Shown one piece after another: positions 25,911-44,244 of a stretch of DNA of 64,000 nucleotides. The position numbers and the translations under genes are program-made. The notes under the pieces were generated by a model. It ran no database searches and was not told the origin of the DNA. It saw only the letters and a program-made list of their open reading frames with translations. Positions within the stretch are counted from its first letter, which is position 1. The number at the start of each line of letters is the position of its first letter. Source of the DNA: Halieaceae bacterium (lineage in GTDB: Bacteria > Pseudomonadota > Gammaproteobacteria > Pseudomonadales > Halieaceae); contig JANQLM010000019.1 in NCBI GenBank assembly GCA_028280635.1, positions 1 through 64,000 of the forward strand, read 5' to 3'.

Positions 25911-26039
25911 GTCCGGGCTTTCTTGCAAACGCATGAGGGGCGATCCTCAATCTACAAACAACTCAACGCAAACCCGTGCCAGTCAATACCAGTTAGGCTG
26001 GAGCAATAGCTCCATGAATTCGTGAAGGCGACGACAACA

Positions 26040-27809
26040 ATGACTTACATCCTCAAAGTGAACACACACAGCATGAACTACGAAATCAGCGACGAGAAGC
26101 GGCTTGATTTGGTGGAGTGCTCACTGGGCCCGGAGTCCTGGCTGGTTGGTCGTGTAAAGCTCAACTACACGTGTCGCACCCTGGACCTTCAGGCAGAAGC
26201 GTCCAGACGTGTTGATGGAGTGGAGGCACTCAAAGAGCTGCTTGACGAGCACGCCTACCAATATGTGATCACTTACTATGACGGGCACCGAAATAGACTG
26301 CACCTGCTCAGAGACTTCACGGGTTGCGAGCCTGGTTACTACGCCCTATCGGGCGAACAGTTGTTTGTCTCTGATAACGCGAGCAAGGTCGCAAAGGAGC
26401 TGAGCCAACAAAACGATATCTGCGAGCAAGGAGCTTTCTGTTTTGTCTACTGCGAAATGCACTGGAAACCCTCAACGCTGTACAAGTCTGTTAAGAGCAT
26501 ACTGAACGAATGCATATACACCTTTGATCCAAATGCTGGCGATTTCAGGATAAGCGACCATTTTTCTGTGCCTCTGGAGAGCGAAGCGGAAACGTTTGAC
26601 CCAAGGACACTGCGAGAGAACATTTGCCTGGCGCACGAAAGACGAATCGGAGACAGGAACTCGATCTACCTATCAGGTGGCATAGACTCCCAGGTAATGG
26701 CAATCACACTCATTCGTGATTTGGGTATTCGGGACACTGAGTCTGTTCACTTTACCGTGAAAGGCAATCAGACGAGTGAAGTTGAGTTTGCCAAAAACGC
26801 CGCTAAGCAGCTCGGAATACCATTCCAGTCCGTGGAGATCGATCCATGTGTCGAAACATGTATCGACCAGCGAATGCTGGACTCAAATTCTCCCTACATT
26901 GGAACACTCTTACTCCAGGAAGCTATTCGTGGGAGTGCAAGCCAGCAAACTACATTCTTTGGAGGCCAAGACACCCGACTCCATACGCCGGCACTGTCAC
27001 GGGCAGATTTATTGTACTGGCAATTTGCTTCCATGCTGGATGGCTCACTGCTTGTATTTCCCTGGCTTTTTGCACGTCTTGCGACGTTCCTCGGAGCACA
27101 TTCCGTTTTGTTTCGCGATGTAGAACGGCGCTCACGATTGAAAGCACTGCTGGACAACATCTATCCCCCCCAGAAATTCTGGAAGTATCGCCACTTCCAC
27201 ATACACCCTTTTGATTTCGCTCTTCACCAGCTAAACAGCCACGCAGCCTTTCAAAGTCTCGAAGACTCGCTAAAAGAGCTTAGAAATGACTCTCACAGAT
27301 CCAGATACAACAAGCTGGTAATGCTCAATTGGAGAAAGCAGTACTTGTTCGACATGGAATACATGGTCGAATCAACCAGGACACTAGGGCACGACTGTGT
27401 ACTTCCCTTTTACGACAGAAGGCTCGCTAAAGAATCGGCGAAAATCAATTTCAGCATTGCGACGCAGTTTTCGAAAGGACGAGCGGGACACTCTTCGCGG
27501 CGAATGCTGGTCAACAAGTATTGCCTACGGGAAGCATACAAGAATGAACTCACTGAAGAACTGATTTTTAGGGATAAAGCGGTATCACCTAGTGCCTCTC
27601 AGTTCTTTAATGGAGGTCTCGCCGGCGAGGTGTCGGCATTCATAACTGACAATCCTCTAAGAGGAACCGCCTTGGGTGAGGCGTTGCACGTTGAAAAGCT
27701 GATTGATATAGCAAAACGCAATGAGCTGCGCTGGTCTTCCTCCGACAACGGCATAATTACCATTCTCTTCAACGCCATTGTGGTCGCAAAGCTATATGCA
27801 GCCAGCTAA
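26040..27809 (+). CDS. Asparagine-synthase-like amide-forming enzyme without a glutaminase cysteine
   Basis: A 589-aa asparagine-synthetase-family protein in a glycan locus. The C-terminal ATP-pyrophosphatase signature is intact (SIYLSGGIDSQVMAITL, about residue 211). The N-terminal Ntn-hydrolase-like region is recognisable (LHLLRDFTGCEPGYYALSGEQLFVSDN), but the residue after the initiator Met is Thr (Lys if GTG 26022 is used), not the cysteine required for glutamine hydrolysis. The enzyme should still adenylate a carboxylate. By analogy with WbpS-like proteins it may amidate a uronic or ulosonic acid with ammonia or another amine; beta-lactam and lasso synthetases are other Cys-less relatives. 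ATG 26040 is favoured by a GAAGG site 11 bases upstream. Confidence 0.8.
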   Translation: MTYILKVNTHSMNYEISDEKRLDLVECSLGPESWLVGRVKLNYTCRTLDLQAEASRRVDGVEALKELLDEHAYQYVITYYDGHRNRLHLLRDFTGCEPGYYALSGEQLFVSDNASKVAKELSQQNDICEQGAFCFVYCEMHWKPSTLYKSVKSILNECIYTFDPNAGDFRISDHFSVPLESEAETFDPRTLRENICLAHERRIGDRNSIYLSGGIDSQVMAITLIRDLGIRDTESVHFTVKGNQTSEVEFAKNAAKQLGIPFQSVEIDPCVETCIDQRMLDSNSPYIGTLLLQEAIRGSASQQTTFFGGQDTRLHTPALSRADLLYWQFASMLDGSLLVFPWLFARLATFLGAHSVLFRDVERRSRLKALLDNIYPPQKFWKYRHFHIHPFDFALHQLNSHAAFQSLEDSLKELRNDSHRSRYNKLVMLNWRKQYLFDMEYMVESTRTLGHDCVLPFYDRRLAKESAKINFSIATQFSKGRAGHSSRRMLVNKYCLREAYKNELTEELIFRDKAVSPSASQFFNGGLAGEVSAFITDNPLRGTALGEALHVEKLIDIAKRNELRWSSSDNGIITILFNAIVVAKLYAAS

Positions 27810-27834
27810 TCATTCCTGCCCGGATACAGACGAT

Positions 27835-29145
27835 CTATCTGACGACCCTTCTAACACCGATGACTCTAGACAGAAATGCGGTGATGATAAGTGCTACGAG
27901 GAAGTAGAACCGTCCACCTGAAAACGCATTGACCATAAAGCCGCTAATGATTAATGAAGCAAAAAACGGATATAGGAGTATGCCAAGCATTTGGTTTCTA
28001 CGAGAACTCAAATATAAATAGCCACTAATCCAACCTAGAATGGCACCTTCCAGCAGTAGACCAACAAGCCCAAAGTCAATATAGGCGTCACCAAGAAAGG
28101 TCTGATATCGGCCCGGCCTGGGGTTTACGGTCGCAATTGACACCATATCGAAATCTACGAGGTCAAACAGTGAGAGGAACTTGAAGATAACGAAGAACTG
28201 TTTGACACCATGGGTTCGATCTTCAGCATTGAAGCGATCAATGAGATAGGAAAACTCCGCAGTTCCCTGTACGAGATAGTCCACAAGCCAGAAAAACACG
28301 AAGAAGGCATTTCCGATGATTGGCATTGCGACAAGATCAAACAACGTCTCGGAAGGCTTGATGAAACTGTTAAGCGACGTGAGCTCAAGATACTGCTGTT
28401 TGCTGCCGAAAATCAGCTCAACTCGGTCAATAAAAAGGAATCCTCCAACAGCAACAATGGCGATCGCGAGCGCTGTCATCAAACGTGGATACGGAACGAG
28501 CCTGGCTCCTGCGTCGGATGGAAGGCTTAAGCTCTTGCCAGCCAATGAAAAGAAAAAGAACAGGAAAGTAAATGCAGCCGCCCAGCTTCCACCGAGCAGG
28601 AACCCCTCAATGGCAGGGTAGAGGGAAATAGCGACGGCGAGCCGCCGAGTTGACCGACGGATGTCGCTCCAGAAGTAGATAAGAAATACTATCAGTGGAT
28701 AGGTGAATCCTATAAAGAGTGCAGCGAGCGCGCCGACCATACCGGCCTGACCGACTTCCGCCACGCCGTAGTCATAGCTGAGCGTTTGTAGACTTAGTCT
28801 TAGGGCGGCTGAGCCCTGCGACAAATCGAAACCTCTAATATAAAAATTTGAAACTATTCGAGCGAGAACACCTACCAGTGAGATTACAAGGAGAAGCCAG
28901 AAAAGACGCCTGCATTTACCATCGAATTCCGGGGCCAGGTAACGCTCGCCCGGAGGAGTGGTAAGTGAGCACGCCAGGATACTGGAAACACAGAAAACGG
29001 CGACGAATGCCCATATCACTAAGACGCCGGCCAGCGAAGTCAGGTCGTAGCCGAACGGGACGACTATGTACAGAAAAAGAAGGGCAAGCGCGAAATTGAA
29101 TACCAGGCTATGTGGACTGAGGAGTAGCCCTTTTCGCAACCGCAT
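27835..29145 (-). CDS. Wzy-like O-antigen/oligosaccharide repeat-unit polymerase
   Basis: Polytopic membrane protein (436 aa, roughly eleven hydrophobic segments). It resembles repeat-unit polymerases: a large periplasmic loop between late membrane segments contains SIATVNPRPGRYQTFLGDAYIDFGLVGLL, and the N-terminal half carries FYIRGFDLSQGSAALRLSLQ, a pattern seen in Wzy proteins of oligosaccharide repeat units. Low GC matches its neighbours. It is convergent with the asparagine-synthase-like gene and is read after the GT4 gene in the same direction. The other polymerase candidate in the window (13318-14646) belongs to the separate exopolysaccharide operon. Confidence 0.75.
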   Translation of the reverse strand: MRLRKGLLLSPHSLVFNFALALLFLYIVVPFGYDLTSLAGVLVIWAFVAVFCVSSILACSLTTPPGERYLAPEFDGKCRRLFWLLLVISLVGVLARIVSNFYIRGFDLSQGSAALRLSLQTLSYDYGVAEVGQAGMVGALAALFIGFTYPLIVFLIYFWSDIRRSTRRLAVAISLYPAIEGFLLGGSWAAAFTFLFFFFSLAGKSLSLPSDAGARLVPYPRLMTALAIAIVAVGGFLFIDRVELIFGSKQQYLELTSLNSFIKPSETLFDLVAMPIIGNAFFVFFWLVDYLVQGTAEFSYLIDRFNAEDRTHGVKQFFVIFKFLSLFDLVDFDMVSIATVNPRPGRYQTFLGDAYIDFGLVGLLLEGAILGWISGYLYLSSRRNQMLGILLYPFFASLIISGFMVNAFSGGRFYFLVALIITAFLSRVIGVRRVVR

Positions 29146-29170
29146 AGCGATTTCCTATCTGTTACGCATG

Positions 29171-30340
29171 CTATGAAGAGCTAGCAGTGTTGCTGCTTCT
29201 ATCCGAAGCTAAACACTTCGAGACGTAAGCGGACAGCTCGTTCTGAAATTTTGCCGCTGAAAAACGGCTGGCGTTTTCTAGCAGCCTACCCTGTTCGAAG
29301 CAGTGTTCTTGCGATTCAAACTCCCCTACGGCACGGCATATTGCTGAACTCGTTTGCTCATGGAAATAGACGCCCGTTTTTCCAGGGACCACGGTCTCTA
29401 GCGCACCTCCCTTTGCGTAGCATATTACGGGAGTTCCGGAAGCCTGGGCCTCAACGGGGACTATTCCAAAATCTTCCTCCGCGGCATAAACGAATGCTCG
29501 AGCTCGCGACATTGTCTCCCTAACGACGTGGTCAGGTTGATAACCTAAAACCTCTATGTTCTTCGCCGCCGCCATTCGCACTTTCTGCATATCTGGGCCA
29601 TCACCAATGACAACAAGCTTCTTGTCAGGCATATCCGAAAAGGCCTCAACAATCAGTGGAATTCTCTTGTAGGGAACAAGCCTGGAACAGGTTAGATAAA
29701 AGTCTTCCTTGCTGGGAACAGTAGAAAAACCATTCAACTCGATTCCAGGATGTATCACATGCGCTTCTCGCCGATAGGTCTTGAAAATCCTTCTGGCAAT
29801 GAAATTTGAATTGGCAATGAAGTAGTCGACTCCAAGGGAGTTGCGGCAATCCCAATCCCTCATTCGACTGAAGACCCACCTAATGATGGCGCCTCGAATA
29901 CCTTTCTGAAGCCCGAGGCTATCGAGATACTCTTCTTGCATATCCCAGATGTACCGCATTGGGGAGTGGCAGTAACAAATGTGAGTTTGATCAGGTCCAG
30001 AGATCAAACCTTTCGCAACAGCAGAACTGCTGCTGATTATCAGGTCGTATCCCCGAAAGTCCAAGCTCTCCATAGCAAGCGGCATCAACGGTAGATACTT
30101 CCGGTAGCCCTTTGAGAATGGCAGCCGTTGTATAAAGGAAGTCGAGACGTTCTCCACGCCCAGCGCCTCGAGCTCTGAATCCTTGAGAAAACAGACGGTG
30201 CTAAACAGGTCTGCCTGTGGAAACAGTTTCAGCAGTTGCTGCAGAACTCTTTCAGCTCCACCAAGGTCCAGCAACCAATCATGTACTATCGCCACTCGAG
30301 CTTCTTGGAGTGCACGCTGGGAATTCGCTTCAGTCTCCAA
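29171..30340 (-). CDS. GT4-family glycosyltransferase (WbaZ-like)
   Basis: Cytoplasmic retaining GT-B glycosyltransferase (389 aa). Landmarks: VAIVHDWLLDLGGAERVLQQ near the N-terminus, ICYCHSPMRYIWDMQEEYL, FIARRIFKTYRREAHVIHPGI, KLVVIGDGPDMQKVR, and the E-x7-E region AAEEDFGIVPVEAQASGTPVI. The VHDWL...GGAERVL opening is shared with mannosyltransferases such as WbaZ, suggesting a mannose- or related sugar-transfer step in repeat-unit assembly. The start used is TTG 30340 behind GAGAGGG; a GTG 45 bases downstream is an alternative. Confidence 0.88.
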   Translation of the reverse strand: METEANSQRALQEARVAIVHDWLLDLGGAERVLQQLLKLFPQADLFSTVCFLKDSELEALGVENVSTSFIQRLPFSKGYRKYLPLMPLAMESLDFRGYDLIISSSSAVAKGLISGPDQTHICYCHSPMRYIWDMQEEYLDSLGLQKGIRGAIIRWVFSRMRDWDCRNSLGVDYFIANSNFIARRIFKTYRREAHVIHPGIELNGFSTVPSKEDFYLTCSRLVPYKRIPLIVEAFSDMPDKKLVVIGDGPDMQKVRMAAAKNIEVLGYQPDHVVRETMSRARAFVYAAEEDFGIVPVEAQASGTPVICYAKGGALETVVPGKTGVYFHEQTSSAICRAVGEFESQEHCFEQGRLLENASRFSAAKFQNELSAYVSKCLASDRSSNTASSS

Positions 30341-30346
30341 AGCCGT

Positions 30347-31714
30347 CTAAACCCTCTCTTCTGACACTTGTATGTCGTATCCATGTGCCTCGACCAGGGC
30401 TCTCGCAACCTTTGTCAGATTCTTGGGAGACATCACATCCTCACTCAGATACCTATCTCCTACCAGGCCAGGAAAGGATGTACGGAAAAGGAAGTCCGAC
30501 AGCTGACGCTTTTCCTCGCCACTCGCCAAGAACTCACCCTCATTGCAAGCATGGTTAACCATGCTTTCCAGAGAATCTCTATTGGATCGCATCGCTTGAT
30601 GGCGTTCGAGAAAATCGAGTGGACCATGACCGACCTGTAAAACCGGTATGTCACGAAAAACACACTCTACAGCAAGCGTACCAGTTATCGTTATCACTTG
30701 GTGCACTTTGCTGAGCACTTCCCCAATGCCGACGTCCAGAGGAAGGAGATGAACATTAGGTAGCTTGATCACGCGATCGAGGAGAGGGCCAAGGAGCTCA
30801 TATTTAGCTTTGGGATTTGCCTTGACAAGGACCTGCCAGTTTCGAGGAGCAACAGAGCTCAATTCTTCAATAAAGGCGCATTGGTCGTTGTATTCGCTCG
30901 CCCAGACATCAATATTTGATTCGGGTTGAAGCTGCATCGGAAAAAGCAGGGACTTTTTCGACGGAATCTGCGAGAGCTCAGTTTGATTTCTCTTCCATTC
31001 CTGTAGAGCCCGTTTCAGCCGCATATGCAATCGCAGCTTTGTAGTTGGGGATGGCGTGTTGAACCTCTCACCCGTGAAGAACCCTTGAAGCTTCCTGAGT
31101 TTCTGAGGATCGCTTACGGGCCGGCTGCTCAGTACGTTTTTGACGTTCCGCATATAAACTGGCGCGGAGTGATATGAAGCCACAGATTCGATCAACGACG
31201 TAACATCTGTTTCCGAATAGTCTTGAGCCCGGTTTAGAACCGGGCTCTTCCGATGATGCTTGTAAATGCAGAACCGACCAGGAGGATAACCAGGTGTACT
31301 TGGAGATAAATACGGGATGCCGAATTCCTCTGCCACGAGTGATGTCATTACTTCATGGAAGAGCGTAGCTTCCCCAACGATCAAGTCTGGATCAAGCTCA
31401 GAGAGCGCGCGACCGATGGCGTCCCAGTAATAAGGGTAGTGATCAGTAGATACACCAAAAAAACGCACCGCCCGGTCCGTTCGTGCAACATAGTTTAGCT
31501 TTTCTTTTCCTACGCAAAACCTTGGCTCGGAGCACCCTGCCAGTTCAGATTTTGGCGGGTAACCCAACCGGACGACCTTATCACCACACCTTGGGGCGTA
31601 GCAGTTGTTCTGCACGATCCAACTGGTCTCATAGCCAAATCTATCCTTTAACTCCCGAGCCAAAGCCAACCAAAACTCAGTCTTGTACCGGTTTTCCAGA
31701 AACGCAATCTTCAT
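30347..31714 (-). CDS. Capsule-synthesis-like GT-B protein
   Basis: A 455-aa soluble protein weakly resembling capsule polysaccharide biosynthesis proteins (KpsC/KpsS-like and surface-carbohydrate GT-B families). The C-terminal half shows the typical order: LLFPMQLQPESNIDVWA, a VLVKANPKAKY strand-loop where many relatives have KPHP, then VITITGTLAVECVFRDIPVLQVG, equivalent to the usual S-x3-E-A region. No other catalytic motif is certain. It precedes the GT4 gene by a few bases on the same strand, so it likely acts on the same glycan. The enzymatic role is a guess. Confidence 0.6.
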   Translation of the reverse strand: MKIAFLENRYKTEFWLALARELKDRFGYETSWIVQNNCYAPRCGDKVVRLGYPPKSELAGCSEPRFCVGKEKLNYVARTDRAVRFFGVSTDHYPYYWDAIGRALSELDPDLIVGEATLFHEVMTSLVAEEFGIPYLSPSTPGYPPGRFCIYKHHRKSPVLNRAQDYSETDVTSLIESVASYHSAPVYMRNVKNVLSSRPVSDPQKLRKLQGFFTGERFNTPSPTTKLRLHMRLKRALQEWKRNQTELSQIPSKKSLLFPMQLQPESNIDVWASEYNDQCAFIEELSSVAPRNWQVLVKANPKAKYELLGPLLDRVIKLPNVHLLPLDVGIGEVLSKVHQVITITGTLAVECVFRDIPVLQVGHGPLDFLERHQAMRSNRDSLESMVNHACNEGEFLASGEEKRQLSDFLFRTSFPGLVGDRYLSEDVMSPKNLTKVARALVEAHGYDIQVSEERV

Positions 31715-31827
31715 AACTCAGGATCTTGGTGGAGTTCTGCGGAGTCTAGGGCATTTCTTGCACAGATCATGCTTTCGTTTATCGTAGTAGCCTCTATTCA
31801 CGAGTTGAGCGTAGCTGGACCGGCATC

Positions 31828-32676
31828 ATGTTGAATCTTTCAAACATCATTGAGCCATTTAAGGAGTTCATATTTGCTAGCGGTTCTTTCAATTACCGGA
31901 AAATGCGACTTCTAGGAAGAATCCCTCGTTTCAGAAAGTACACTCCTAACCCAATGGAGCACCCAACTTCCTCTCCCAACGAGCCGATCTCAGGTTTGCA
32001 TCCATTGACTTTTGTCGAGAAGGCTATAACTGGTTTACGCCAATATGGCTACTACGATGGGATAGCCGTTGATTGCACCTTGCTTGACCATCTTCATGAG
32101 ATCGTAAAGTCGTCTCAATTTACGCCGAGAGATATTAGCAACCACCGAGACCAGAACCTATACAATATTGATCCATTGAATCTACAAAATCCCGGAGGCG
32201 CGTATCTCTACGCTCTGCTCAATCCGCATCTTAAACACCCGTGGCTGCACAGCTTCATATCTCAGAGCCTCGGCCCGGTAGCTAAAGCCTACCTCAATAG
32301 TGAGACCGTCAGTGTCAGCTCACAAATATGGGCTAGCTTTGACGACGGTGGACGCGCATACAACCCAGATTTCGGCTTCCACTACGACCTCGACGACTAT
32401 CGATTTCTGAAGTTCTTCCTCTACCTATCCAATGTGGATTCAGGCTCGGGTCCTCACCAGGTCGTTGAAAGTTCACATCAACATGACCACTTCTTTAGGT
32501 TCTTTAACAGAAGGCTGAGAGAGCATTCCCGCTATCTGGATGGCAAGACGATAAAGACCTTCGTGGGCAATGCTGGTACGTGTTTCTTTGAGGACACCTT
32601 ATGCTATCACCGGGGCGTGCGCCCCGAAGAACCTCGCCTGGTTTTCCAAGCCGAGTTCTGCATAAACGACTACTAA
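31828..32676 (+). CDS. Phytanoyl-CoA dioxygenase-like Fe(II)/2-oxoglutarate oxygenase
   Basis: A 282-aa protein with the double-stranded beta-helix oxygenase pattern: metal-binding H-x-D in FGFHYDLDDYRFLK near residue 190, the following FFLYLSNVDSGSGPHQVVESSH, and the distal histidine and 2-oxoglutarate-binding arginine in CYHRGVRPEEPRLVFQAEF. It would hydroxylate or otherwise oxidise a small substrate with Fe(II), oxygen and 2-oxoglutarate. PhyH-like genes sometimes sit in natural-product and glycan loci; here the substrate could be a sugar, an acyl group or a lipid carrier, unknown. It is divergent from the GT-B-like gene and convergent with the SDR gene. Confidence 0.75.
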   Translation: MLNLSNIIEPFKEFIFASGSFNYRKMRLLGRIPRFRKYTPNPMEHPTSSPNEPISGLHPLTFVEKAITGLRQYGYYDGIAVDCTLLDHLHEIVKSSQFTPRDISNHRDQNLYNIDPLNLQNPGGAYLYALLNPHLKHPWLHSFISQSLGPVAKAYLNSETVSVSSQIWASFDDGGRAYNPDFGFHYDLDDYRFLKFFLYLSNVDSGSGPHQVVESSHQHDHFFRFFNRRLREHSRYLDGKTIKTFVGNAGTCFFEDTLCYHRGVRPEEPRLVFQAEFCINDY

Positions 32677-32840
32677 GTCGTCAACGAAAACAAAGACTCC
32701 AGTGATTAGCAAAGCTAAACGAATCAATTGCAAGAATGGGCATTTGGCAACGCAGCACTGTCACGTATTTCTCTCATCTGCGATAAGTGGCTAACAGGAC
32801 GCCAAAGCGCTTGGGCTCCCAGCAACCTATGGATACCTTT

Positions 32841-33563
32841 CTACGCGGTGCTGCCGGCATCCACTGTTATTGTGGTGCCTGTTATCGATGCAGCCTCACT
32901 ACTCATGAGGAAGCCCACCGCCCGGGCAGAATCTTCTACGGTGGCCAACCTTCCCAACGCACTACGGCGCTTGATGGTTTCCAGCTTTTCACCCTGCAGG
33001 CTACTGGTCATTTCCGTTTGCATGTATCCAGGGGCCAACATGTTGACAGTCACCCCCATCCGACCCACTTCTCTACAGAGCGACCGGGTGAAGCCGGTCA
33101 TAGCAGATTTGCTTGCTCCATAGACTGACAGACCGCTGAAGCCCGTGTTTGCCATGATTGATGAGATATTAACTATGCGCCCCTCTTTATTCAGCATCAT
33201 CGGCCTGAGTAGGTACTTTGTTAGCAGGATCGGCGCCTCCACGTTAACCGCTAGTACCTCCCTAATATCCGATTCATGCATTGTCGCCAAAACGCCATCC
33301 GAGCCAATGGCCGCATTGTTCACAAGCCCGTATATGCGGCCGTAGGTATCCGAAATCCTCTTCGACAGACCGTATATTTCGGAGGTGTTAACAAAATCGA
33401 ACGCTTCAAAATGGACCTGATTGGGGTGCTCCGCCGCCAGTGCCTCCAGCATCTCGGTTTTCTGGCGACCAAGTGCGATGACATTGAAACCGTCGCGCAC
33501 TAGCTGACGAACGATTGCCAGGCCCAAGCCCCGTGTACCGCCAGTGACTACAACATAACGCAC
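32841..33563 (-). CDS. FabG-like short-chain dehydrogenase/reductase
   Basis: Classical SDR (240 aa), NAD(P)H-dependent. Landmarks: VVVTGGTRGLGLAIVRQL, VNNAAIGSDG, catalytic Ser in VNISSIMANTGFSG, YGASKSA, and GVTVNMLAPGYMQTEM. The pattern fits 3-oxoacyl-ACP reductases (FabG). It starts at GTG 33563. It is the last gene of a minus-strand cassette with a PseH-like acetyltransferase, an acyl carrier protein and an acyl-adenylating enzyme, so reduction of a 3-oxoacyl-ACP to a 3-hydroxyacyl-ACP is a reasonable proposal. A sugar-oxidoreductase role cannot be excluded. Confidence 0.85.
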   Translation of the reverse strand: MRYVVVTGGTRGLGLAIVRQLVRDGFNVIALGRQKTEMLEALAAEHPNQVHFEAFDFVNTSEIYGLSKRISDTYGRIYGLVNNAAIGSDGVLATMHESDIREVLAVNVEAPILLTKYLLRPMMLNKEGRIVNISSIMANTGFSGLSVYGASKSAMTGFTRSLCREVGRMGVTVNMLAPGYMQTEMTSSLQGEKLETIKRRSALGRLATVEDSARAVGFLMSSEAASITGTTITVDAGSTA

Positions 33564-33574
33564 GATTTGTTTTC

Positions 33575-34915
33575 CTAACGCCTCAGTTTGCCGGCATCAC
33601 TGGTTTCCAGATGCTCGCTGAATGTGACTAACGCTGGCCATTTGTGTTTTTGCAGTTTGGAAGCACAGTGCTGGCGAATAGCTTTCTTTAGCTCTACCCC
33701 AGAATCGCGATCTTGGTTCGACGGCACCACCGTCGCGGAGACTATCTGCCCTACAAGGGCGCTTTCCTTCGCCGTCACAACAACATCGTCGACGCCAGGA
33801 ACCTCCCTGATAACGCACTCTACTTCCTCCGGGAGAACTTTCAAACCACCCACGTTTATCGCGCCGGATGAGCGCCCCATGAAGACCACGCGATCACCTT
33901 CGATCCTGACGATGTCACCAGTATCGAAGAAGCCTTCCGCATCAGTGCTGGCCTCAACAGCTTCGCAGGTCGCCATAAGCTGGGTGCGAATCAACAGGTT
34001 TCCGTTGCCCCCAATCCGCAATTCCACCGGCCTCTCCTCCTGCAACCAGGTGGCGGGAAAGCCCGGCAACCCATCGCTTACTGAAAAGCCTACGCCTGCC
34101 TCTGTAGACGCATATATATGAACGATTCGCGCATCGCCGTACGCACTCCGGAGGGCACTGAGAATGGAGCCGTCAGCAATCTCTCCACCCAGGGTTATCT
34201 GTTTCAACCGGCAGTTCTTGATATCCCCTTGCATTATCAGTTTACGCCACATGGAAGGAGTCGCAGATAGTGCGGTCACTTTTTCGCGCACAAGCTCGCC
34301 GCAGCGCTCAACAAAGGCTCTTGAGCTACATTCCACCAGGGTTGCGCCAGAAAACAACGCCTGGAGAAAAACCTGGAGCCCGGCAAACCGATCAAATTCG
34401 TAGAGCGTCCCCCATACAAGGTCGCTCAGTTCTCCTTGCGATACGGACACGGAGCGCGTGAGCGTGTTTAAGGTATGGTCGATGAGCTTGGGCACGGAAG
34501 TCGTACCAGAGGTAGCAATCACCCAACGCGTCTCAATGCCAGCTCCGGAGTCCGCACCCGCACTCCCATCATCCGGGGTGCTGCTCGCCTCGTCGCCGCC
34601 GAGAACATCCGAGATTCCAGCTCTCTGAAGTATTTCACTCGAGTCATTCTTCGAGATCGACGAAGGCAGCAACAGTATTCGGCTGACCCACCCATCCAGC
34701 GCGACAAGGTGCAGGACAAAACTCAGCCTGTCCTGCGTTGATAGCGCAACGGGAAGATTGAAATAGCGGGAGTAATGCTGTCGAAGTGCTGTTGCTTCCT
34801 GTCGTAGCCTGTCTGAGCTCCATTCTTCGCCATCAAAGAGCAGCTTGAAGGTACTGCCCTCACACGAAAGCGCATCAAACAGATTCTTAGACTTCTCTCG
34901 AGGCATGATTGTCAT
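33575..34915 (-). CDS. AMP-binding acyl-adenylating enzyme (acyl-ACP ligase candidate)
   Basis: ANL-superfamily adenylating enzyme (about 446 aa). ATP-binding ATSGTTSVPKLIDHTL, IYASTEAGVGFS, FFDTGDIVRIEGDRVVFMGRSSGAINVGGLKVLPEEVE, and the C-terminal lysine in TSDAGKLRR at the very end are all present. It would activate a carboxylic acid as an acyl-adenylate and load it onto CoA or onto the ACP encoded immediately upstream. Length is short for an acyl-CoA synthetase, closer to stand-alone acyl-ACP ligases. ATG 34915 or 34906 are both reasonable starts; either overlaps the ACP gene end, implying coupling. Confidence 0.85.
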   Translation of the reverse strand: MTIMPREKSKNLFDALSCEGSTFKLLFDGEEWSSDRLRQEATALRQHYSRYFNLPVALSTQDRLSFVLHLVALDGWVSRILLLPSSISKNDSSEILQRAGISDVLGGDEASSTPDDGSAGADSGAGIETRWVIATSGTTSVPKLIDHTLNTLTRSVSVSQGELSDLVWGTLYEFDRFAGLQVFLQALFSGATLVECSSRAFVERCGELVREKVTALSATPSMWRKLIMQGDIKNCRLKQITLGGEIADGSILSALRSAYGDARIVHIYASTEAGVGFSVSDGLPGFPATWLQEERPVELRIGGNGNLLIRTQLMATCEAVEASTDAEGFFDTGDIVRIEGDRVVFMGRSSGAINVGGLKVLPEEVECVIREVPGVDDVVVTAKESALVGQIVSATVVPSNQDRDSGVELKKAIRQHCASKLQKHKWPALVTFSEHLETSDAGKLRR

Positions 34916-35147
34916 ATATGGAAACAAATTCCGACCAGGTGCGCGGGTACTCTGCGTTCTCCAGAGCAACAAACGGGTCGAAACCAAAGTCCTCTTCAAG
35001 CCGCGCTACGAGGAACGCAAATCCAATCGAATCCAGCCCGCATTCGAGCAACACGGTATCTGCATTCAACTCTCCAGTGAGTTCACAATCTGTTGCGTCT
35101 GCAGTTTCGATCAGAAGCTCTCGTATAACCGGTTCAAGTGATTTCAT
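34887..35147 (-). CDS. Dedicated acyl carrier protein
   Basis: An 86-aa acidic carrier protein. The phosphopantetheine attachment serine lies in LLECGLDSIGFAFLVARLEE near residue 38 and is followed by the usual acidic recognition helix and FDPFVALEN. It starts at ATG 35147, 5 bases after the PseH-like stop at 35152. It is distinct from housekeeping AcpP, whose motif is DSLDTVE. Embedded in a glycan cassette with an adenylating enzyme, an SDR and an N-acyltransferase, it probably carries a specialised acyl group for sugar acylation. The longer frame reaching 35297 is not needed. Confidence 0.88.
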   Translation of the reverse strand: MKSLEPVIRELLIETADATDCELTGELNADTVLLECGLDSIGFAFLVARLEEDFGFDPFVALENAEYPRTWSEFVSIYDNHASREV

Positions 35148-35151
35148 AGGA

Positions 35152-35736
35152 TTATCTGACTTCAATAAATTCAATTTTTTGGCAAGCTCTGGAAATCTGC
35201 TCGGGTAGACGATCGAGCATACTGTCGCGGCAATCAGCCCAACTATCCCTCGTAAACGAAAACTCAATGACTCGAAAGACGTCCTCCCCCCTGGCAACTG
35301 TCTTGGACCCGGGCGACTCAGACCATTCGAAATATCTGTTTAGTTTCAGTGCAGTGTGGTTCGATTCTATGACCTCACCAACCAGTTTATTCAGCCCCAT
35401 GCAGTGGAAAGCATATTCCAGACTGGCAAAATTCAGTACCAGCCCCATCCCTGGCCAAACTCGCTCTTCTCCTATGTAGCACCCCCACTTACAAGACTCA
35501 CCTTCCAGAATCTCAAAGAAATTCAACACCCCCACAGGTCGCCCATCCAGATGGATGATGAAGTACTTCCTGGCATTGTCACCTAACAATCCATTGAACC
35601 AGTTAAGCTGCTGTTCAGAGGAAATCACTGAATCGTCAAGACTATTCTGTCTGATCCTTGGCTTGTTTCTCCAGTTGCGCACTTGCTCGATGTCAGATTT
35701 CGTAATGGATACGAAATCGATCTTGGGCCCACTCAT
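35152..35736 (-). CDS. pseH: PseH-like GNAT N-acyltransferase
   Basis: GNAT-fold acyltransferase (194 aa) resembling PseH, which acetylates the 4-amino group of UDP-4-amino-4,6-dideoxy-beta-L-AltNAc in pseudaminic acid synthesis. Landmarks: EQVRNWRNKPRIRQNSLDD, SSEQQLNWFNGLL, VGVLNFFEI, the acyl-CoA loop region GLVLNFASLEYAF and MGLNKLVGEVIESNHTALKLNRYF. It is the only PseH candidate in the window, about 8.5 kb from the pseB gene, in a low-GC cassette with ACP, adenylating enzyme and SDR, so the donor may be an acyl-ACP or unusual acyl group rather than acetyl-CoA. A long hairpin lies 37 bases upstream. Confidence 0.82.
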   Translation of the reverse strand: MSGPKIDFVSITKSDIEQVRNWRNKPRIRQNSLDDSVISSEQQLNWFNGLLGDNARKYFIIHLDGRPVGVLNFFEILEGESCKWGCYIGEERVWPGMGLVLNFASLEYAFHCMGLNKLVGEVIESNHTALKLNRYFEWSESPGSKTVARGEDVFRVIEFSFTRDSWADCRDSMLDRLPEQISRACQKIEFIEVR

Positions 35737-39059: not shown

Positions 39060-40070
39060 TCACGGATCGCTGGCCACGCATTCCACCCCAGCGCGGTGAA
39101 ACAGCGCGATGACGTCGGCCAGGGCCGGGTTGTGAGCCTCGATTACATCGAGGCCATAGGCGACACCCCGCACGCCGGGGTGGGCATTCACGATGCTGAC
39201 CAGCGCTGAGGAGCAGAAGCTGATCACCGCGGCTGGCTCGAGTTCGTGTACCAGCTCCTCCACCGGCCTGTTGTCTTCACACAGGCTGGGGGCCAGGGTC
39301 TGCATCTCAGGGCGTATTTCGCTGGGTGCGGAGGGGTGCGGCTTGAAGATGAATTCGCCCTGCGGCCACGTGGTTTGCAGATAGCGCCGGAAGGCGTTGT
39401 GTAAGCGTTCGGCCACCTCACTCGGCAGTATTTGTACCAGCGGCTGGTCCAGGATCAGCACCCGGTTGGCCAGCGGAGTAAATGCCGGCTTTGCCCTGGA
39501 GACCGGGTGGATGGCGGCAAAGCGCTCTGGGGCGTATACCGAGTCCGGCTGTGAAAACCAGCCCACCAGTGGCCTGTCCGTGGCGTGGATACCCGACAGG
39601 TGGCCTTCGTATAGCCGATAAGACAGTGGAAACAGGCGCATATAGCGCGCCCGCTTTTCCAGCTTGCGGCGCAGGAAGTCGGTGGGTGACGCGTTGTAGT
39701 AGTTGAGGATCCCGTCTTCAAACAGGTTGATGGTGTTGACGTTTGCGGAAAAAAAGAAGTGGTTGCCCGCCGCATGGACGGGGTGCGGCAGGTAGAGGTC
39801 GAACCGTTCCCGGTCAACGCGGCGGCGAGCACGCCAAACCTCAAGGAGCAGCCGTGGCAGGCCCAGGCTTCTTTCGAACACCTGCCACTGGCGAGCGTTG
39901 CCAGCGCCCTGGCCTCCTGCCAGCGGTCGTTCCGAGAAGTTGAATACCACCACCTGTTCCGGCAGGGCCAGCGAGCCACTGAATTCCTCCCAGAACCAGG
40001 AATGAAACTGGGTGTACAGGAAGACAATGCCCAGCCGTACGCTCAGTTGCTCCGGCGCCTCTAAGCCCAT
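39060..40070 (-). CDS. Sialyltransferase-fold (GT52-like) glycosyltransferase, candidate pseudaminic acid transferase
   Basis: A 336-aa cytoplasmic protein with the motifs shared by bacterial sialyltransferases: the acidic motif in INLFEDGILNYYN near residue 118, the HP motif in FIFKPHPSAPSEIRP near residue 240, and the serine pair in VISFCSSALVSIVNAHPG. These fit GT52 and polysialyltransferase-like families that use CMP-nonulosonic acids. It is the last gene of the pse operon, 46 bases after pseI, so CMP-pseudaminic acid is the natural donor. Lst of Aeromonas caviae is a known example linked to Pse genes. The acceptor (LPS, capsule or flagellin) is unknown. Confidence 0.78.
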   Translation of the reverse strand: MGLEAPEQLSVRLGIVFLYTQFHSWFWEEFSGSLALPEQVVVFNFSERPLAGGQGAGNARQWQVFERSLGLPRLLLEVWRARRRVDRERFDLYLPHPVHAAGNHFFFSANVNTINLFEDGILNYYNASPTDFLRRKLEKRARYMRLFPLSYRLYEGHLSGIHATDRPLVGWFSQPDSVYAPERFAAIHPVSRAKPAFTPLANRVLILDQPLVQILPSEVAERLHNAFRRYLQTTWPQGEFIFKPHPSAPSEIRPEMQTLAPSLCEDNRPVEELVHELEPAAVISFCSSALVSIVNAHPGVRGVAYGLDVIEAHNPALADVIALFHRAGVECVASDP

Positions 40071-40116: not shown

Positions 40117-41166
40117 TCATTCCAGCAGCTCCCACTTCACCGGTGTGTTGCCGGCGATGTCGCGGCTGGCCTTGCGGCCAATCACCTCGTCCAGGTGTTT
40201 GGGCGCGAGGCCAAAACCCGGCCGCACGCTGCGCACGCAGCTCGCGTCGATGGTATCCCCGGCCCTGATATCGCGCACGAAGTAGAGCGAGCGGCGGAAC
40301 TGCACGTTGCCCTGCTCACTGGACTTGCGCCCGTAGTCCACCTCCCCCAGCGCCTTCCAGGCGGTCAGAGTGTCTTTGCAGAGTGCCTGCAGGTCCTGGG
40401 GTTCCAGGGAGAAGCTGTCATCCGGCCCACCGCCACTCCTGTCGAGGGTGAAGTGCTTTTCGATGATGGCGGCGCCGAAAGCCACGCTGGCGACGGCGGC
40501 GGCATTGTCCAGGGTGTGGTCAGAGAGCCCGGTCACCAGACCGAAGCGCTCCATCATGTCGGCGATAGTGCGCAACTTGTAGTCTTCCGGCGGGGCGGGA
40601 TAACCGCTCACACAGTGCAGGATCGCCAGTTGGGTGCAGCCGCCCTGCTTCGCGGCATCGACCGCCTCCTGGATTTCTTCCTGGTCGGCCATGCCGGTGG
40701 AGATGATCATCGGCTTGCCGGTGCTGGCCGTATAGCGAATCAACGGCAAATCCACGGCTTCAAAGGAGGCGATCTTGTAGGCGGGGGCATTGAGGTCTTC
40801 GAGCAGGTCGACCGCCGTGGTATCAAAGGCCGAGCTGAATATCTGGATGCCCGCCTCCCTGGCATGCTCAAACAGCGGCTGGTGCCACTCCCAGGGCATG
40901 TGGGCCTCTTCGTAGAGCTCGTACAGGCTGCGGCCGTCCCACAGGCCACCGCTGATGACGAACTCCGGCGCATTGGAATCCAGCGTGATGGTGTCGGGGC
41001 GGTAGGTCTGCAGCTTGACCGCATCGGCGCCCGCCTTCGCCGCTTCAGAGATCATCGTCAACGCCGACTCCAGCTTGCCGTTATGGTTGGCCGAGAGCTC
41101 CGCAATGATATAGGGCGGATGATCTCGTCCAATCTTCCGCCCGGCTATACAGATTTCTGCTGCCAT
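40117..41166 (-). CDS. pseI: Pseudaminic acid synthase
   Basis: NeuB-family enzyme (349 aa) condensing 2,4-diacetamido-2,4,6-trideoxy-L-altrose with phosphoenolpyruvate to pseudaminic acid. Landmarks: IIAELSANHNGKLESAL, ADAVKLQTYRPDTITLDSN, PAYKIASFEAVDLPLI, MIISTGMADQEEI, LAILHCVSGYPAP, GLSDHTLDNAAAV, IIEKHFTLDRSGGGPDDSFS, and a C-terminal antifreeze/SAF domain (DIRAGDTIDASCVRSVRPG). SANHNG and DHTL point to PseI rather than NeuB. It follows pseG after a 110-base gap occupied by a 38-codon frame. Confidence 0.95.
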   Translation of the reverse strand: MAAEICIAGRKIGRDHPPYIIAELSANHNGKLESALTMISEAAKAGADAVKLQTYRPDTITLDSNAPEFVISGGLWDGRSLYELYEEAHMPWEWHQPLFEHAREAGIQIFSSAFDTTAVDLLEDLNAPAYKIASFEAVDLPLIRYTASTGKPMIISTGMADQEEIQEAVDAAKQGGCTQLAILHCVSGYPAPPEDYKLRTIADMMERFGLVTGLSDHTLDNAAAVASVAFGAAIIEKHFTLDRSGGGPDDSFSLEPQDLQALCKDTLTAWKALGEVDYGRKSSEQGNVQFRRSLYFVRDIRAGDTIDASCVRSVRPGFGLAPKHLDEVIGRKASRDIAGNTPVKWELLE

Positions 41167-41169
41167 CGC

Positions 41170-41286
41170 CTAGACCCTCAACCGCTTTGCTAGCGAAGCA
41201 ATCCCATGGTCTCGAAGGACAGCCCCAGCAAACAGACCCGGCAGGCCAATCTCCATAATGCGACTCTCCAATGGGCTCACCTCCAT
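41170..41286 (-). CDS. Possible 38-aa small ORF filling the pseG-pseI gap
   Basis: ATG at 41286 lies just before the pseG stop, in another frame, and the reading frame runs exactly to a TAG at 41170, 3 bases before the pseI ATG (41166). The product would begin MEVSPLESRIMEIGLPGLF and end SLAKRLRV: a short hydrophobic centre and basic tail. No family was recognised. It could be a real coupled peptide, a ribosome-coupling leader for pseI, or the scar of a lost gene such as a pseH at this common position. Confidence 0.35.
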   Translation of the reverse strand: MEVSPLESRIMEIGLPGLFAGAVLRDHGIASLAKRLRV

Positions 41287-42368
41287 GACCTCAACGCTTC
41301 AAGGACTCGAGAACACCCCATGCCATCTACCAGCACGGAACCGCGGCTGAGCGTCCTCTCCAGATAGTCCTCAAAAGTGCCATCGCACCACAGCCGGCCG
41401 AGCGTGTCACCGACTTGCGCACCACTTTCGACGATGATGGCGATATCGAGTTCACTCAGGACCTGCGCCACGGCCTTCTGGTTCTCTGCAATGACGACCA
41501 TTATGGTGGGCAACCCCAGGCAAAAGCGCTCCCAGGACGCGCTGCCCACAGCACCAATCGCCAGGTCCGCCAGGCACATCCGCTGCGCCATATCTGCCAC
41601 CCCGACGCTCACTGTTGCCTTGAACGGCATGCGTTCCGCCAGCAGTCTTACTGTCTCGACATGTGGGGCGGAGGCGCCCAATACAATATCCAGCTCGCAT
41701 TCCGTGGGAAGCGATTCCGCCGTAAGGCTGGCGAGCACCTCACCAGTCACATTCGCGGGGTCGGAGCCTCCCAAAGACACCAGCACTCGCTTTACCGTTG
41801 CCCGCTTGCGCCTGCTCAAACTCTGTTGCCGAAGCGCGGCAAACTCCGGACGTAGCAATGCGTAGTCAGGGCCAATCAAACGGGTGCAGCCGTCGGGCAC
41901 CAGCCGGTCATAATCCACTGGATGTCGGCCCAGGTTCTGGTCCAGCAGCAGGCCGCAGACATGCTGCCTGTCTGCCAGGTCGTCGATCACCATAATCCTG
42001 TCGATTGTTTCGACAAGCTGTTGCTCCCAGCGCGCATCGAGTGCGTAATGATCGGCCACCAGCAGGTCAAAACGCTCGGATGACAGCGCAGCGTGAGTCT
42101 GTGCCGCATCATCAGGCCAGCGGGCGCCCAACCAGGATGTCTCAGCCGCGGCATCATCTGCCGCGCCTTCTCTATCAGCGTCGACGGGCAGCAAGCGCAA
42201 CTCGTGTCCCCTGCTGGAGATCAGGTCCCCCAGGTGGCCGTGATGGGTGCGGCATATGAACCGGCATTGCCCGCCCTGGCGGGCCAGCTCATCCGCCAGC
42301 GTGAGACAGCGCATCACATGGCCGGTGCCAATGTGTGTGCCGGCATCCACGCGGAAAGCCACCTTCAC
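41277..42368 (-). CDS. pseG: UDP-2,4-diacetamido-2,4,6-trideoxy-beta-L-altropyranose hydrolase
   Basis: Releases UDP from the PseH product to give the free sugar used by PseI (363 aa). GT-B-like fold with N-terminal FRVDAGTHIGTGHVMRCLTLAD (His in the GxGHxxR motif is catalytic in PseG), the mid-protein VDHY-type LLVADHYALDARWEQQL, and C-terminal RVLVSLGGSDPANVT, IGAVGSASWERFCLGLPTIMV. Starts at GTG 42368, overlapping pseF by 4 bases. The motif set is that of PseG rather than of NeuC-type hydrolysing epimerases. Confidence 0.95.
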   Translation of the reverse strand: MKVAFRVDAGTHIGTGHVMRCLTLADELARQGGQCRFICRTHHGHLGDLISSRGHELRLLPVDADREGAADDAAAETSWLGARWPDDAAQTHAALSSERFDLLVADHYALDARWEQQLVETIDRIMVIDDLADRQHVCGLLLDQNLGRHPVDYDRLVPDGCTRLIGPDYALLRPEFAALRQQSLSRRKRATVKRVLVSLGGSDPANVTGEVLASLTAESLPTECELDIVLGASAPHVETVRLLAERMPFKATVSVGVADMAQRMCLADLAIGAVGSASWERFCLGLPTIMVVIAENQKAVAQVLSELDIAIIVESGAQVGDTLGRLWCDGTFEDYLERTLSRGSVLVDGMGCSRVLEALRSWR

Positions 42369-43090
42369 CCTTCTTTGGCCTCAGCCTGCATCGCCCGAAA
42401 CAACCATTCGGCGCGTGTCCAGTCCTCCGCAGTATCGATGTCCTGTACACGGTGGGCAGGCAGCTTCACCGGCACCGAGTCCTGGCCAAAAATCATTGTT
42501 CCCTGCCGCCAGGCCTCTGCTGTGCCCCAGTAGAACTGGCCGGCATCATGCCAGGCCTCCTCGAGGTCCTGCGAGCGGCTGGTGAAGTGCTCTGGATGGA
42601 ACATTTCCATGCGTCCATCTTCCTTGATTTTGATCGCGCGCTGCACCGGAAACGTGTAGCGGGCGACAGAGAACGCGTAGCTGCAAGCCTCCCGCAGAAG
42701 CAATTCAAGGCCGGTACGCAGATCCTCAGGCGAAACGAAGGGCGCTGTCGCAAACAGGCAGCACACGTAATCGAGCGCTTCCCTCTGCCCGGATCGCTGC
42801 TCATCAAACCATTCCACCGCGTGTTGGATGACGCGAGCGGCGCTGGTGTGGTCGTCTGCCAGCTCCTGCGGACGCATGAAAGGCACCTCGGCACCCCAGG
42901 TTCTCGCCGTGTTGGCAATTTCCAGATCATCGGTCGACACAACAATCCGGTCGAAACAGCCGCTGGCCTGCGCAGCCTCAATCGACCAGGCGATCATGGG
43001 CTTGCCGCAGAATGGCTTGATGTTCTTGCCCGGGATGCGCTTGCTGCCACCCCGCGCCGGAACAACGCAGAGCCGGGTCAAGGCAGACAC
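42365..43090 (-). CDS. pseF: CMP-pseudaminic acid synthetase (cytidylyltransferase)
   Basis: Activates pseudaminic acid with CTP (241 aa). N-terminal CTP-binding signature LCVVPARGGSKRIPGKNIKPF, then GKPMIAWSIEAAQ, IVVSTDDLEIANTARTWGAE, and VCCLFATAPFVSPEDLR. Length and residues fit PseF (CMP-NeuAc synthetase superfamily). GTG start 43090 lies inside the pseC 3' end (13-base overlap) and the stop overlaps pseG by 4, so the operon is tightly coupled. Confidence 0.95.
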   Translation of the reverse strand: MSALTRLCVVPARGGSKRIPGKNIKPFCGKPMIAWSIEAAQASGCFDRIVVSTDDLEIANTARTWGAEVPFMRPQELADDHTSAARVIQHAVEWFDEQRSGQREALDYVCCLFATAPFVSPEDLRTGLELLLREACSYAFSVARYTFPVQRAIKIKEDGRMEMFHPEHFTSRSQDLEEAWHDAGQFYWGTAEAWRQGTMIFGQDSVPVKLPAHRVQDIDTAEDWTRAEWLFRAMQAEAKEG

Positions 43091-44244
43091 TCGCTGGTGG
43101 CACGCTGCAGGGATTCCACCACGGCATCTTGTTGCTCTTCAGTCATGGTCGGAAACAGCGGAATGCTCATGGCTTCCCGGTAGTAATTCATCGCTTCAGG
43201 GAAATCGTCTTCCTGAAAGCCCATGGCCTGGTAGTAGGGCTGGATATGAATCGGGATATAGTGGAGGTTCACACCGATGCCCTGCTCACGCAGCGATTCG
43301 AACACCCGGCGATGCGCCTCGCTGCTGGAAGCCTGGAGGCGAATCACATACAGGTGAAACGCCGAGCTGCTGTCCGCATGCTCGCCTGGCGTCGTCATCG
43401 GCAGGTCTTGAAGCAGCTCGTGGTAACGTTGCGCGAGCTGCCGCCGGCGCGCCACGAACTCATCCAGCCGCTGCATCTGGCTGATTCCCAATGCCGCCTG
43501 CAGGTCAGTCATTCGGTAGTTGTAACCCAGCTCAAGCTGCTGGTAATACCAGGGCCCATCTGACGGCTTTGTCATCAGCTCATGGTCACGGGTGATGCCG
43601 TGGCTGCGGAACAGGGCCATGCGCTGGGCCAGGGTGTCGTTATTGGTGAGCGCCAGGCCGCCTTCTGCCGTTGTCACTATCTTCACCGGATGAAAGCTGA
43701 ACACGGTGATATCGCTATAAAGGCAGTTGCCGATGTACTCACCCCGATACTTGCCGCCCACTGCGTGGGAGGCGTCCTCGACGATGTGAAAGCCGTAGCG
43801 TTGGCTGAGTTCGTGCAGCGCCGCCATATCGCAGGGCTGGCCACAGAGGTGCACGGGCACCAGCACCTTTGGCAAGCGGCCCTCGCCTTCCGCCTGCTCG
43901 AGTTTGGCAGCCAGCGCCTGCGGGCAGAGGTTGTAGGTATGCGGATCGATATCGACAAAATCAACGCTTGCGCCGCAGTAGAGGCCGCAATTGGAGGAGG
44001 CCACAAAACTGATGGGGCTGGTCCACAGCCAGTCCCCCGGGCCCAGACCCAGTGCCAGGCAGGCGATATGCAGCGCCGAGGTGGCGCTGTTGGCGGCCAC
44101 CGCGTGTCCGGCGCCAACATGTGCCGCCACTTTTGCCTCGAACTCGGGCACCTTGGGGCCCTGGGTCAGGAAATCAGACTGCAATACCTCCAGCACCGCT
44201 TCGATATCCGCTGGGCTGATATCCTGCCTGCCATAGGGAATCAT
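43078..44244 (-). CDS. pseC: UDP-4-keto-6-deoxy-N-acetyl-beta-L-altrosamine aminotransferase
   Basis: PLP-dependent DegT/DnrJ/EryC1/StrS aminotransferase (388 aa) transferring an amino group to C4 of the PseB product. Landmarks: MIPYGRQDISPADIEAVLEV, AVAANSATSALHIACLALG, LVPVHLCGQPCDM, VEDASHAVGGKYRGEYIGN, and the PLP lysine in VFSFHPVKIVTTAEGG. The tail RQLAQRYHELL and HLYVIRLQ are typical of PseC. It overlaps pseB by one base and pseF by 13. Confidence 0.95.
   Translation of the reverse strand: MIPYGRQDISPADIEAVLEVLQSDFLTQGPKVPEFEAKVAAHVGAGHAVAANSATSALHIACLALGLGPGDWLWTSPISFVASSNCGLYCGASVDFVDIDPHTYNLCPQALAAKLEQAEGEGRLPKVLVPVHLCGQPCDMAALHELSQRYGFHIVEDASHAVGGKYRGEYIGNCLYSDITVFSFHPVKIVTTAEGGLALTNNDTLAQRMALFRSHGITRDHELMTKPSDGPWYYQQLELGYNYRMTDLQAALGISQMQRLDEFVARRRQLAQRYHELLQDLPMTTPGEHADSSSAFHLYVIRLQASSSEAHRRVFESLREQGIGVNLHYIPIHIQPYYQAMGFQEDDFPEAMNYYREAMSIPLFPTMTEEQQDAVVESLQRATSECLP

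Follow-up and report, generated by a model that had tools for sequence, protein, structure and literature searches.

Does a PseH-family N-acyltransferase that is encoded directly beside genes for acyl activation take its acyl group from acetyl-coenzyme A (acetyl-CoA), as its family label implies, or from an acyl carrier protein (ACP)? This question is raised by the first 64,000 nucleotides (nt) of contig JANQLM010000019.1 (assembly GCA_028280635.1, forward strand) of a Halieaceae bacterium, which is the whole stretch analysed here and is called the window. In this window, a PseH-family gene is followed by genes for an ACP, an adenylate-forming ligase and a short-chain dehydrogenase/reductase (SDR), the last three being referred to together as the trio. 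As read from the sequence, this cassette probably provides ACP-dependent, non-acetyl N-acylation of the precursor of pseudaminic acid (Pse). The reading is supported at the level of genomics by the genes themselves, their intact catalytic motifs, the presence of a sole PseH, the conserved linkage and the loss of the CoA-binding loop.

In the proposed pathway, a short acid would be adenylated by the ligase and attached to the phosphopantetheine group of the dedicated ACP, after which the SDR would reduce the bound acyl group, in the simplest case converting acetoacetyl-ACP to 3-hydroxybutyryl-ACP. The PseH-family enzyme would then take the acyl group from the ACP and not from acetyl-CoA, and transfer it to the 4-amino group of UDP-4-amino-4,6-dideoxy-L-AltNAc, the product of PseC; this is the best-supported step of the scheme. 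The subsequent action of PseG, PseI and PseF would yield CMP-Pse5Ac7Acyl for a surface polysaccharide. A ketoacyl synthase would be dispensable if the ligase takes an acid that is already formed, and no ketoacyl synthase III (KAS III) gene was found in the cassette by open reading frame (ORF) list and Pfam, the ligase being present instead, as a preliminary description of this DNA had also held.

Four intact genes form a compact cassette

The four genes had been described as co-oriented and nearly abutting, and all four were found as intact ORFs on the minus strand between 35736 and 32841. The PseH-family GNAT N-acyltransferase (35152–35736, 194 amino acids [aa]) scores 113.6 bits against TIGR03585 (cut-off 93.1) and is separated by 4 nt from the dedicated ACP (34887–35147, 86 aa; PF00550, 26.4 bits against a gathering threshold of 20.8). 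The listed ORF 35297–34887 is this ACP with an over-extended start. The ACP overlaps by 20 nt with the ANL-superfamily adenylate-forming ligase (33575–34906, 443 aa; PF00501 and PF13193 above gathering), a proposed acid–ACP ligase, which is followed after 11 nt by the SDR (32841–33563, 240 aa; PF00106 and PF13561), a proposed 3-oxoacyl-ACP reductase. Alignments showed that the functional residues of the trio are conserved. The predicted phosphopantetheine serine of the ACP is Ser40 in the motif GLDSIGF, with D39 and S40 invariant in 26 homologues; T132–T135, E269, D331, R345 and the C-terminal lysine K440 of the ligase are invariant in 28 homologues; and the N-S-Y-K catalytic set of the SDR (N107, S135, Y148 and K152) is invariant in 25 homologues. 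The SDR scored best against 3-oxoacyl-ACP reductases in a profile search, but remained under the FabG equivalog cut-off TIGR01830 (199.9 versus 297.75 bits) and is classed as a FabG-like SDR only.

The nature of the ligase bears on what kind of acyl group could be carried. Its weak likeness to amino acid adenylation domains and DltA would allow the loading of an amino acid and the formation of an N-aminoacyl sugar, like Dlt-type D-alanylation. However, MenE-type acid ligases gave both the top scores in the profile search and the nearest folds of the AlphaFold2 (AF2) model (predicted local distance difference test score [pLDDT] 88.7), and the ever-present ketoreductase-like SDR would be left with no role; we therefore consider aminoacylation improbable.

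The genome encodes a single PseH over the cut-off

The pse operon of the window (45242–40117) lies on the same strand as the cassette and encodes PseB, PseC, PseF, PseG and PseI, all over curated cut-offs, with no PseH among its genes (TIGR03585). The preliminary description had seen no other PseH in the window, and this extends to the whole genome (4.48 Mb, 98.6% complete), where no second protein exceeded the TIGR03585 cut-off and the next-best GNAT reached 42 bits. Similarly, exactly one PseH over the cut-off was found in 18 of 18 checked genomes having the four-gene block, and its coordinates were those of the cassette gene in every case. Since the cassette PseH is the sole one in the linked genomes, it replaces the ordinary enzyme in these 18, subject to the completeness of their assemblies.

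The ACP-ligase-SDR order is conserved across many phyla

A genome scan with a single ligase sequence found no relatives. When a six-sequence alignment of the ligase was run against ~85,000 species, 261 ligase relatives were returned, the best 80 of which were analysed, and the ORFs neighbouring them were labelled by hidden Markov models grown from the window proteins. The ACP was directly upstream and the SDR directly downstream of the ligase in 74 of the 80 loci. Because this strict order is kept in so many phyla, the gene arrangement is not a product of chance. A PseH-like protein was encoded at most 9 kb away in 30 of the 80 loci, its gene immediately preceding that of the ACP in 26, and at least two other pse genes were present in 25 of the PseH-bearing loci. 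Among the hosts are Paraglaciecola, Rheinheimera, Alishewanella, Massilia, Nitrincola, Zixibacteria, Sulfurimonas and an Ilumatobacter. The median gaps in the four-gene loci were 3 nt between PseH and ACP and −4 nt at both the ACP-ligase and the ligase-SDR junctions. Thus, the possibility that the four genes are unlinked in relatives was not borne out, and the four-gene order is widespread, for the most part within pse operons.

Linkage was also monitored by sampling with PseH in place of the ligase, in 398 Pseudomonadota, 392 order-level and 369 class-level genomes. The 398 Pseudomonadota genomes contained 20 PseH loci besides the window, four of them with ACP/ligase/SDR genes. Among the order- and class-level genomes, only the window and genome G1093 (L141/L178) yielded the window-type PseH, defined by an alignment match that extends beyond position 185, and the gene order in G1093 is PseG-PseH-ACP-ligase-SDR-GNAT-PseI; genome G873 (L127/L137) of a phylum sample also has a linked window-type PseH. 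This sampling therefore added two further window-type PseHs (L127 and L141), both linked. Two other architectures were seen. One has the order PseH-ACP-SDR-ligase-LuxE-LuxC with a different ACP type (NSIxQWDSxAHM) in L179–L181, LuxE and LuxC of L179 being confirmed by Pfam; in variants of it, the SDR precedes the ACP (L135) or no separate SDR was seen (L136). The other combines the trio with KAS III genes and is represented by L134 and by L023 of Azospirillum brasilense Sp7.

The partners of the trio are not limited to PseH. A hexapeptide (LbH) enzyme was found near it in 30 other loci, often with a DegT aminotransferase in what are amino-sugar loci (Chlorobaculum, planctomycetes and Rhodobacterales), and in loci of the window's own family (L026–L031) a more distant ACP-ligase-SDR trio is followed by an S-adenosylmethionine-dependent methyltransferase, an MBOAT O-acyltransferase and membrane-anchored proteins of ~400 aa. 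Because one module pairs with several kinds of transferase, the trio looks like a portable acyl-ACP supply module, in which ligase, ACP and SDR would make the acyl donor and the partner transferase would choose the acceptor, so that the trio would be tied to acyl transfer and not to any single sugar. The same observation bears on the role of the SDR. SDR enzymes are found in many sugar pathways, and this one might epimerise or reduce the nonulosonic acid or its nucleotide precursor, leaving only the ligase and ACP to serve the acyl group. But this SDR remains together with the ACP and ligase across all three kinds of partner (PseH, hexapeptide enzyme and MBOAT), and its best profile scores are with 3-oxoacyl-ACP reductases, which makes a sugar substrate very doubtful. 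An assignment of the trio to a polyketide or nonribosomal peptide synthetase cluster was considered and dropped, the neighbours being sugar genes.

Several side observations were made in these loci. The L026–L031 MBOAT loci resemble Dlt-type polysaccharide O-acylation, and genes for PIG-L deacetylase and formyltransferase recur beside trio loci (L035, L046, L070 and L107). Natural PseH-ACP fusions, which would speak for direct transfer, were sought and none was found. PseH is fused to a MaoC-like hotdog domain in L109 (6685–7599) and L122 (1486–2400), with the canonical CoA loop kept, and an ACP-ligase-SDR trio lies one gene from the fusion in L109. A PseH fused to a formyltransferase domain occurs in a pse operon (L176, 9140–10360). 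In L041 (1863–4115), PseH is fused to an FkbH-like region (weak Pfam matches), and the genes for a glyoxalase-fold protein and the trio lie downstream of this fusion; elsewhere, FkbH proteins load glyceryl groups onto ACPs.

The CoA-binding loop is altered in linked PseHs

The AF2 model of the window PseH (pLDDT 95.2, with ordered C-terminal helices) matched best in the PDB with 4ri1, the H. pylori PseH with acetyl-CoA (template modelling score 0.74/0.82, E value 5e-12). In a maximum-likelihood tree of 52 PseHs, it fell within a 27-row clade, sampled through the ligase scan, all of whose members are linked to the trio (support 99/99), and linkage requires six changes on this tree versus 13.9 in shuffles. 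Three features set this clade apart. First, the CoA-pyrophosphate loop is altered to WPGMGL at residues 94–99 (35440–35457, minus strand; alignment). The motif (R/K/Q)GxG of this loop was present in 38 of 41 unlinked PseHs, in none of the 28 of the linked clade and in one of 13 other linked PseHs; residue 95 is Pro in 28 of 28 clade members versus Arg or Lys in 37 of 41 unlinked ones, and residue 99 is Leu, Ile or Val in the clade versus mostly Arg, Thr, Ala or Ser. Second, Cys86 (35479–35481, minus strand) aligns with Ile93 beside the acetyl group of H. pylori PseH, as transferred by alignment from the published structure description (PMC4363471), and this residue is Cys in 27 of 28 of the linked clade versus Phe, Tyr or Trp in 40 of 41 unlinked PseHs. 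Third, a C-terminal extension of two helices and a strand (residues 163–191; 35164–35250, minus strand; alignment and AF2 model) with the signature LPxxIxxAxxxIxF is common to the linked clade. The corresponding strand of the H. pylori enzyme binds the thioester, and the pyrophosphate is bound by the loop (PMC4363471). A switch of donor predicts just such a loss of the site for CoA phosphate in a PseH next to a new ACP gene.

These features have to be weighed against the possibility that the window protein is an ordinary acetyl-CoA-dependent PseH making Pse5Ac7Ac, with the acyl group of the trio used elsewhere, for example, in O-acylation of a polysaccharide by another enzyme. The window PseH shares its family score, fold, pathway position, WRN motif and nearby pse genes with acetyl-CoA-type PseHs (4ri1 and 4xpk); it passes the acetyltransferase equivalog cut-off, its closest fold is acetyl-CoA bound, and the trio with an O-acyltransferase type of partner, MBOAT, does occur in the window's own family. 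It is unlike them in the WPGMGL loop, Cys86, the helical C-terminal extension, the abutting ACP, ligase and SDR genes and the proposed acyl-ACP donor. The changed loop and acyl-side residue, the position of PseH directly before the ACP in 26 of 80 loci with a gap of a few nt, its being the sole PseH of its genomes and the absence of any other acyltransferase in the window cassette together make an ordinary acetyltransferase unlikely.

Other observations weigh against ACP-fed N-acylation of Pse in this organism. We know of no glycan structure for nameable linked strains with exactly this cassette. The cassette is 4.4 kb away from the pse operon and has a lower GC content (47–55% versus 56–63%). 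Acinetobacter baumannii makes the 3-hydroxybutanoyl form of Pse without a named ACP, ligase or SDR, the source of its acyl donor not being described (PMC9676051), and H. pylori PseH, an acetyl-CoA user, has itself been described with an atypical P-loop (PMC4964394). The window Asn133 aligns with the proposed general acid of the H. pylori enzyme, Tyr138. Three unlinked PseHs lack the loop motif with no ACP gene nearby in the available sequence, one of the contigs being short, so loop loss is an imperfect marker and not specific to ACP use. Because all 28 members of the clade share ancestry, their loop represents few events. A wider proposal is somewhat less likely than not: a whole subfamily at present labelled as PseH acetyltransferase may consist of acyl-ACP-dependent N-acyltransferases, the switch from CoA to ACP with decay of the CoA loop may have taken place several times within PseH, and the trio may be a general, horizontally mobile module that supplies acyl-ACP to GNAT, hexapeptide and MBOAT transferases acting on bacterial surface sugars across many phyla.

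Identity of the acyl group

The SDR is 55–65% identical across 24 homologues of several classes. Its constant presence at this level of identity suggests one common acyl product, putatively derived from a 3-oxo precursor. The preliminary description had noted that the viosamine case uses ACP and reductase genes and that non-acetyl N-acyl groups occur on Pse, and both points agree with published work. In P. syringae, acp, the KAS III gene vioS, the SDR gene vioR and VioB lead to 3-hydroxybutyryl viosamine, which is lost upon vioR deletion (PMC3927599), and Pse5Ac7-(R)-3-hydroxybutanoyl is known in A. baumannii (PMC9676051). These two cases make 3-hydroxybutyryl the first guess for the window cassette, although the assignment is tentative.

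The scheme may also hold with another acid, such as a dihydroxybutyryl (tetronate-type), glyceroyl, malyl or other hydroxyacyl group, and this has little short of an even chance. The glycosylation island of Aeromonas piscicola AH-3 contains pseH, ACP, reductase, ligase, luxE and luxC, and the strain has a nonulosonic acid of 376.14 Da (PMC7874193). The computed masses are 376.148 Da for mono-N-acetyl Pse carrying C4H6O3 and 316.127 Da for di-N-acetyl Pse. The AH-3 mass thus agrees with a non-acetyl acyl group in another strain whose PseH goes together with an ACP, in a different class of cassette and with isomers such as N-formyl plus C5H8O3 also matching 376.148; such Aeromonas-type cassettes have another ACP kind and LuxE/LuxC, both missing from the window. 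Likewise, the perosamine of V. cholerae O1 bears tetronate, for which wbeL is required (PMC3441752). Within the ligase family, Arg173 in the RFAG motif is invariant across the alignment. Other acid ligases typically have His at this position, and the arginine could signal an unusual acid substrate.

Comparison with known systems and earlier interpretations

Three characterised systems resemble parts of the scheme proposed here. The viosamine island of P. syringae (vioA, B, M, R, S, T and acp) also combines a dedicated ACP, an SDR and a transferase for acylation of a 4-amino sugar (PMC3927599). Unlike the window, it has KAS III (vioS) for the ligase, acts on a dTDP sugar and not on Pse and uses as transferase VioB, described as a dTDP-viosamine acetyltransferase. 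We take VioB to be a hexapeptide enzyme. The tetronate genes of V. cholerae O1 (VC0248–VC0252, including wbeL) serve to attach a hydroxyacyl group, and not acetyl, at the 4-amino position of a dideoxy sugar (PMC3441752), but this sugar is perosamine, and there are extra reductive steps and a different transferase. The product of A. baumannii psaABCGHF carries the very acyl group guessed here (PMC9676051). Presumably, the V. cholerae tetronate genes include an ACP and a ligase.

A similar gene content is found in Aeromonas group II flagellar glycosylation islands, where pseH, ACP, 3-oxoacyl-ACP reductase and AMP-dependent synthetase genes lie between pse genes (PMC7874193). These differ from the window in the order PseH-ACP/SDR-ligase and in the extra LuxE and LuxC, neither of which is in the window cassette; the loci matching this description in our samples (L135, L136 and L179–L181) have the other ACP kind and a distant ligase (40–58 bits to the window ligase-family profile). 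The ACP, reductase and synthetase genes of flagellin glycosylation islands were listed earlier and interpreted as fatty-acid synthesis (PMC7874193, PMC4875605), those of Aeromonas group II as fatty-acid synthesis or “liposugar” (PMC7874193). A literature search with most subscription journals outside its reach found no proposal of ACP-dependent N-acylation of Pse and no paper joining Pse, hydroxybutyryl and ACP. ACP-fed N-acylation of amino sugars is an already known kind of reaction.

Acyl variation on Pse and related acids changes surface antigens and phage receptors, and the genes for non-acetyl forms are largely unassigned. If the proposal is true, a PseH gene beside ACP-ligase-SDR would be a simple gene test predicting non-acetyl Pse from genomes, the TIGR03585 label would be corrected for linked PseHs, and the “fatty-acid synthesis” genes of glycosylation islands would be explained. 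It would also provide enzymes for new sugar derivatives and show GNAT sugar acyltransferases switching from CoA to ACP donors.

Genomic setting of the cassette

The genes of the pse operon are all on the minus strand and encode PseB, the inverting 4,6-dehydratase (44244–45242; TIGR03589, 545 bits against 407), PseC, the aminotransferase making the PseH substrate (43078–44244; TIGR03588, 569 against 423), PseF, the CMP-pseudaminic acid synthetase (42365–43090; TIGR03584, 336 against 205), PseG, the UDP-sugar hydrolase (41277–42368; TIGR03590, 315 against 153), and PseI, the pseudaminic acid synthase (40117–41166; TIGR03586, 504 against 340). On the same strand, a Wzx-like flippase (45246–46559; PF01943, 34 bits against 28) is next to pseB, and a polysialyltransferase-like glycosyltransferase (39060–40070; PF07388, 49 bits against 23) beside PseI is by its position a candidate pseudaminic acid transferase. 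Wza-, Wzc- and Wzy-like genes are located at 13.3–18.9 kb of the window. With these genes nearby, the sugar probably ends in a capsule or exopolysaccharide.

No PseI was found in three genomes of the same genus. The GC content is 47–55% in the cassette, ~49% in the adjoining 26–32 kb, 56–63% in the pse operon and 64% in the flanks, and these differences suggest that the cassette and the pse operon were acquired separately. The low-GC (~47–55%) island 26022–35736, which lies between regions of 57% and 64% GC, encodes an asparagine-synthase-like protein, a glycosyltransferase, unassigned proteins and the cassette. A convergent gene for a 282-aa dioxygenase-like protein (31828–32676, plus strand) was considered as a fifth member of the cassette and rejected, as no relative was found near other trios. 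The protein has no Pfam or NCBIfam match at 1e-3 and no significant similarity to the PhyH-like gene in locus L113; an HxD...H pattern in it hints at an iron/2-oxoglutarate-dependent dioxygenase.

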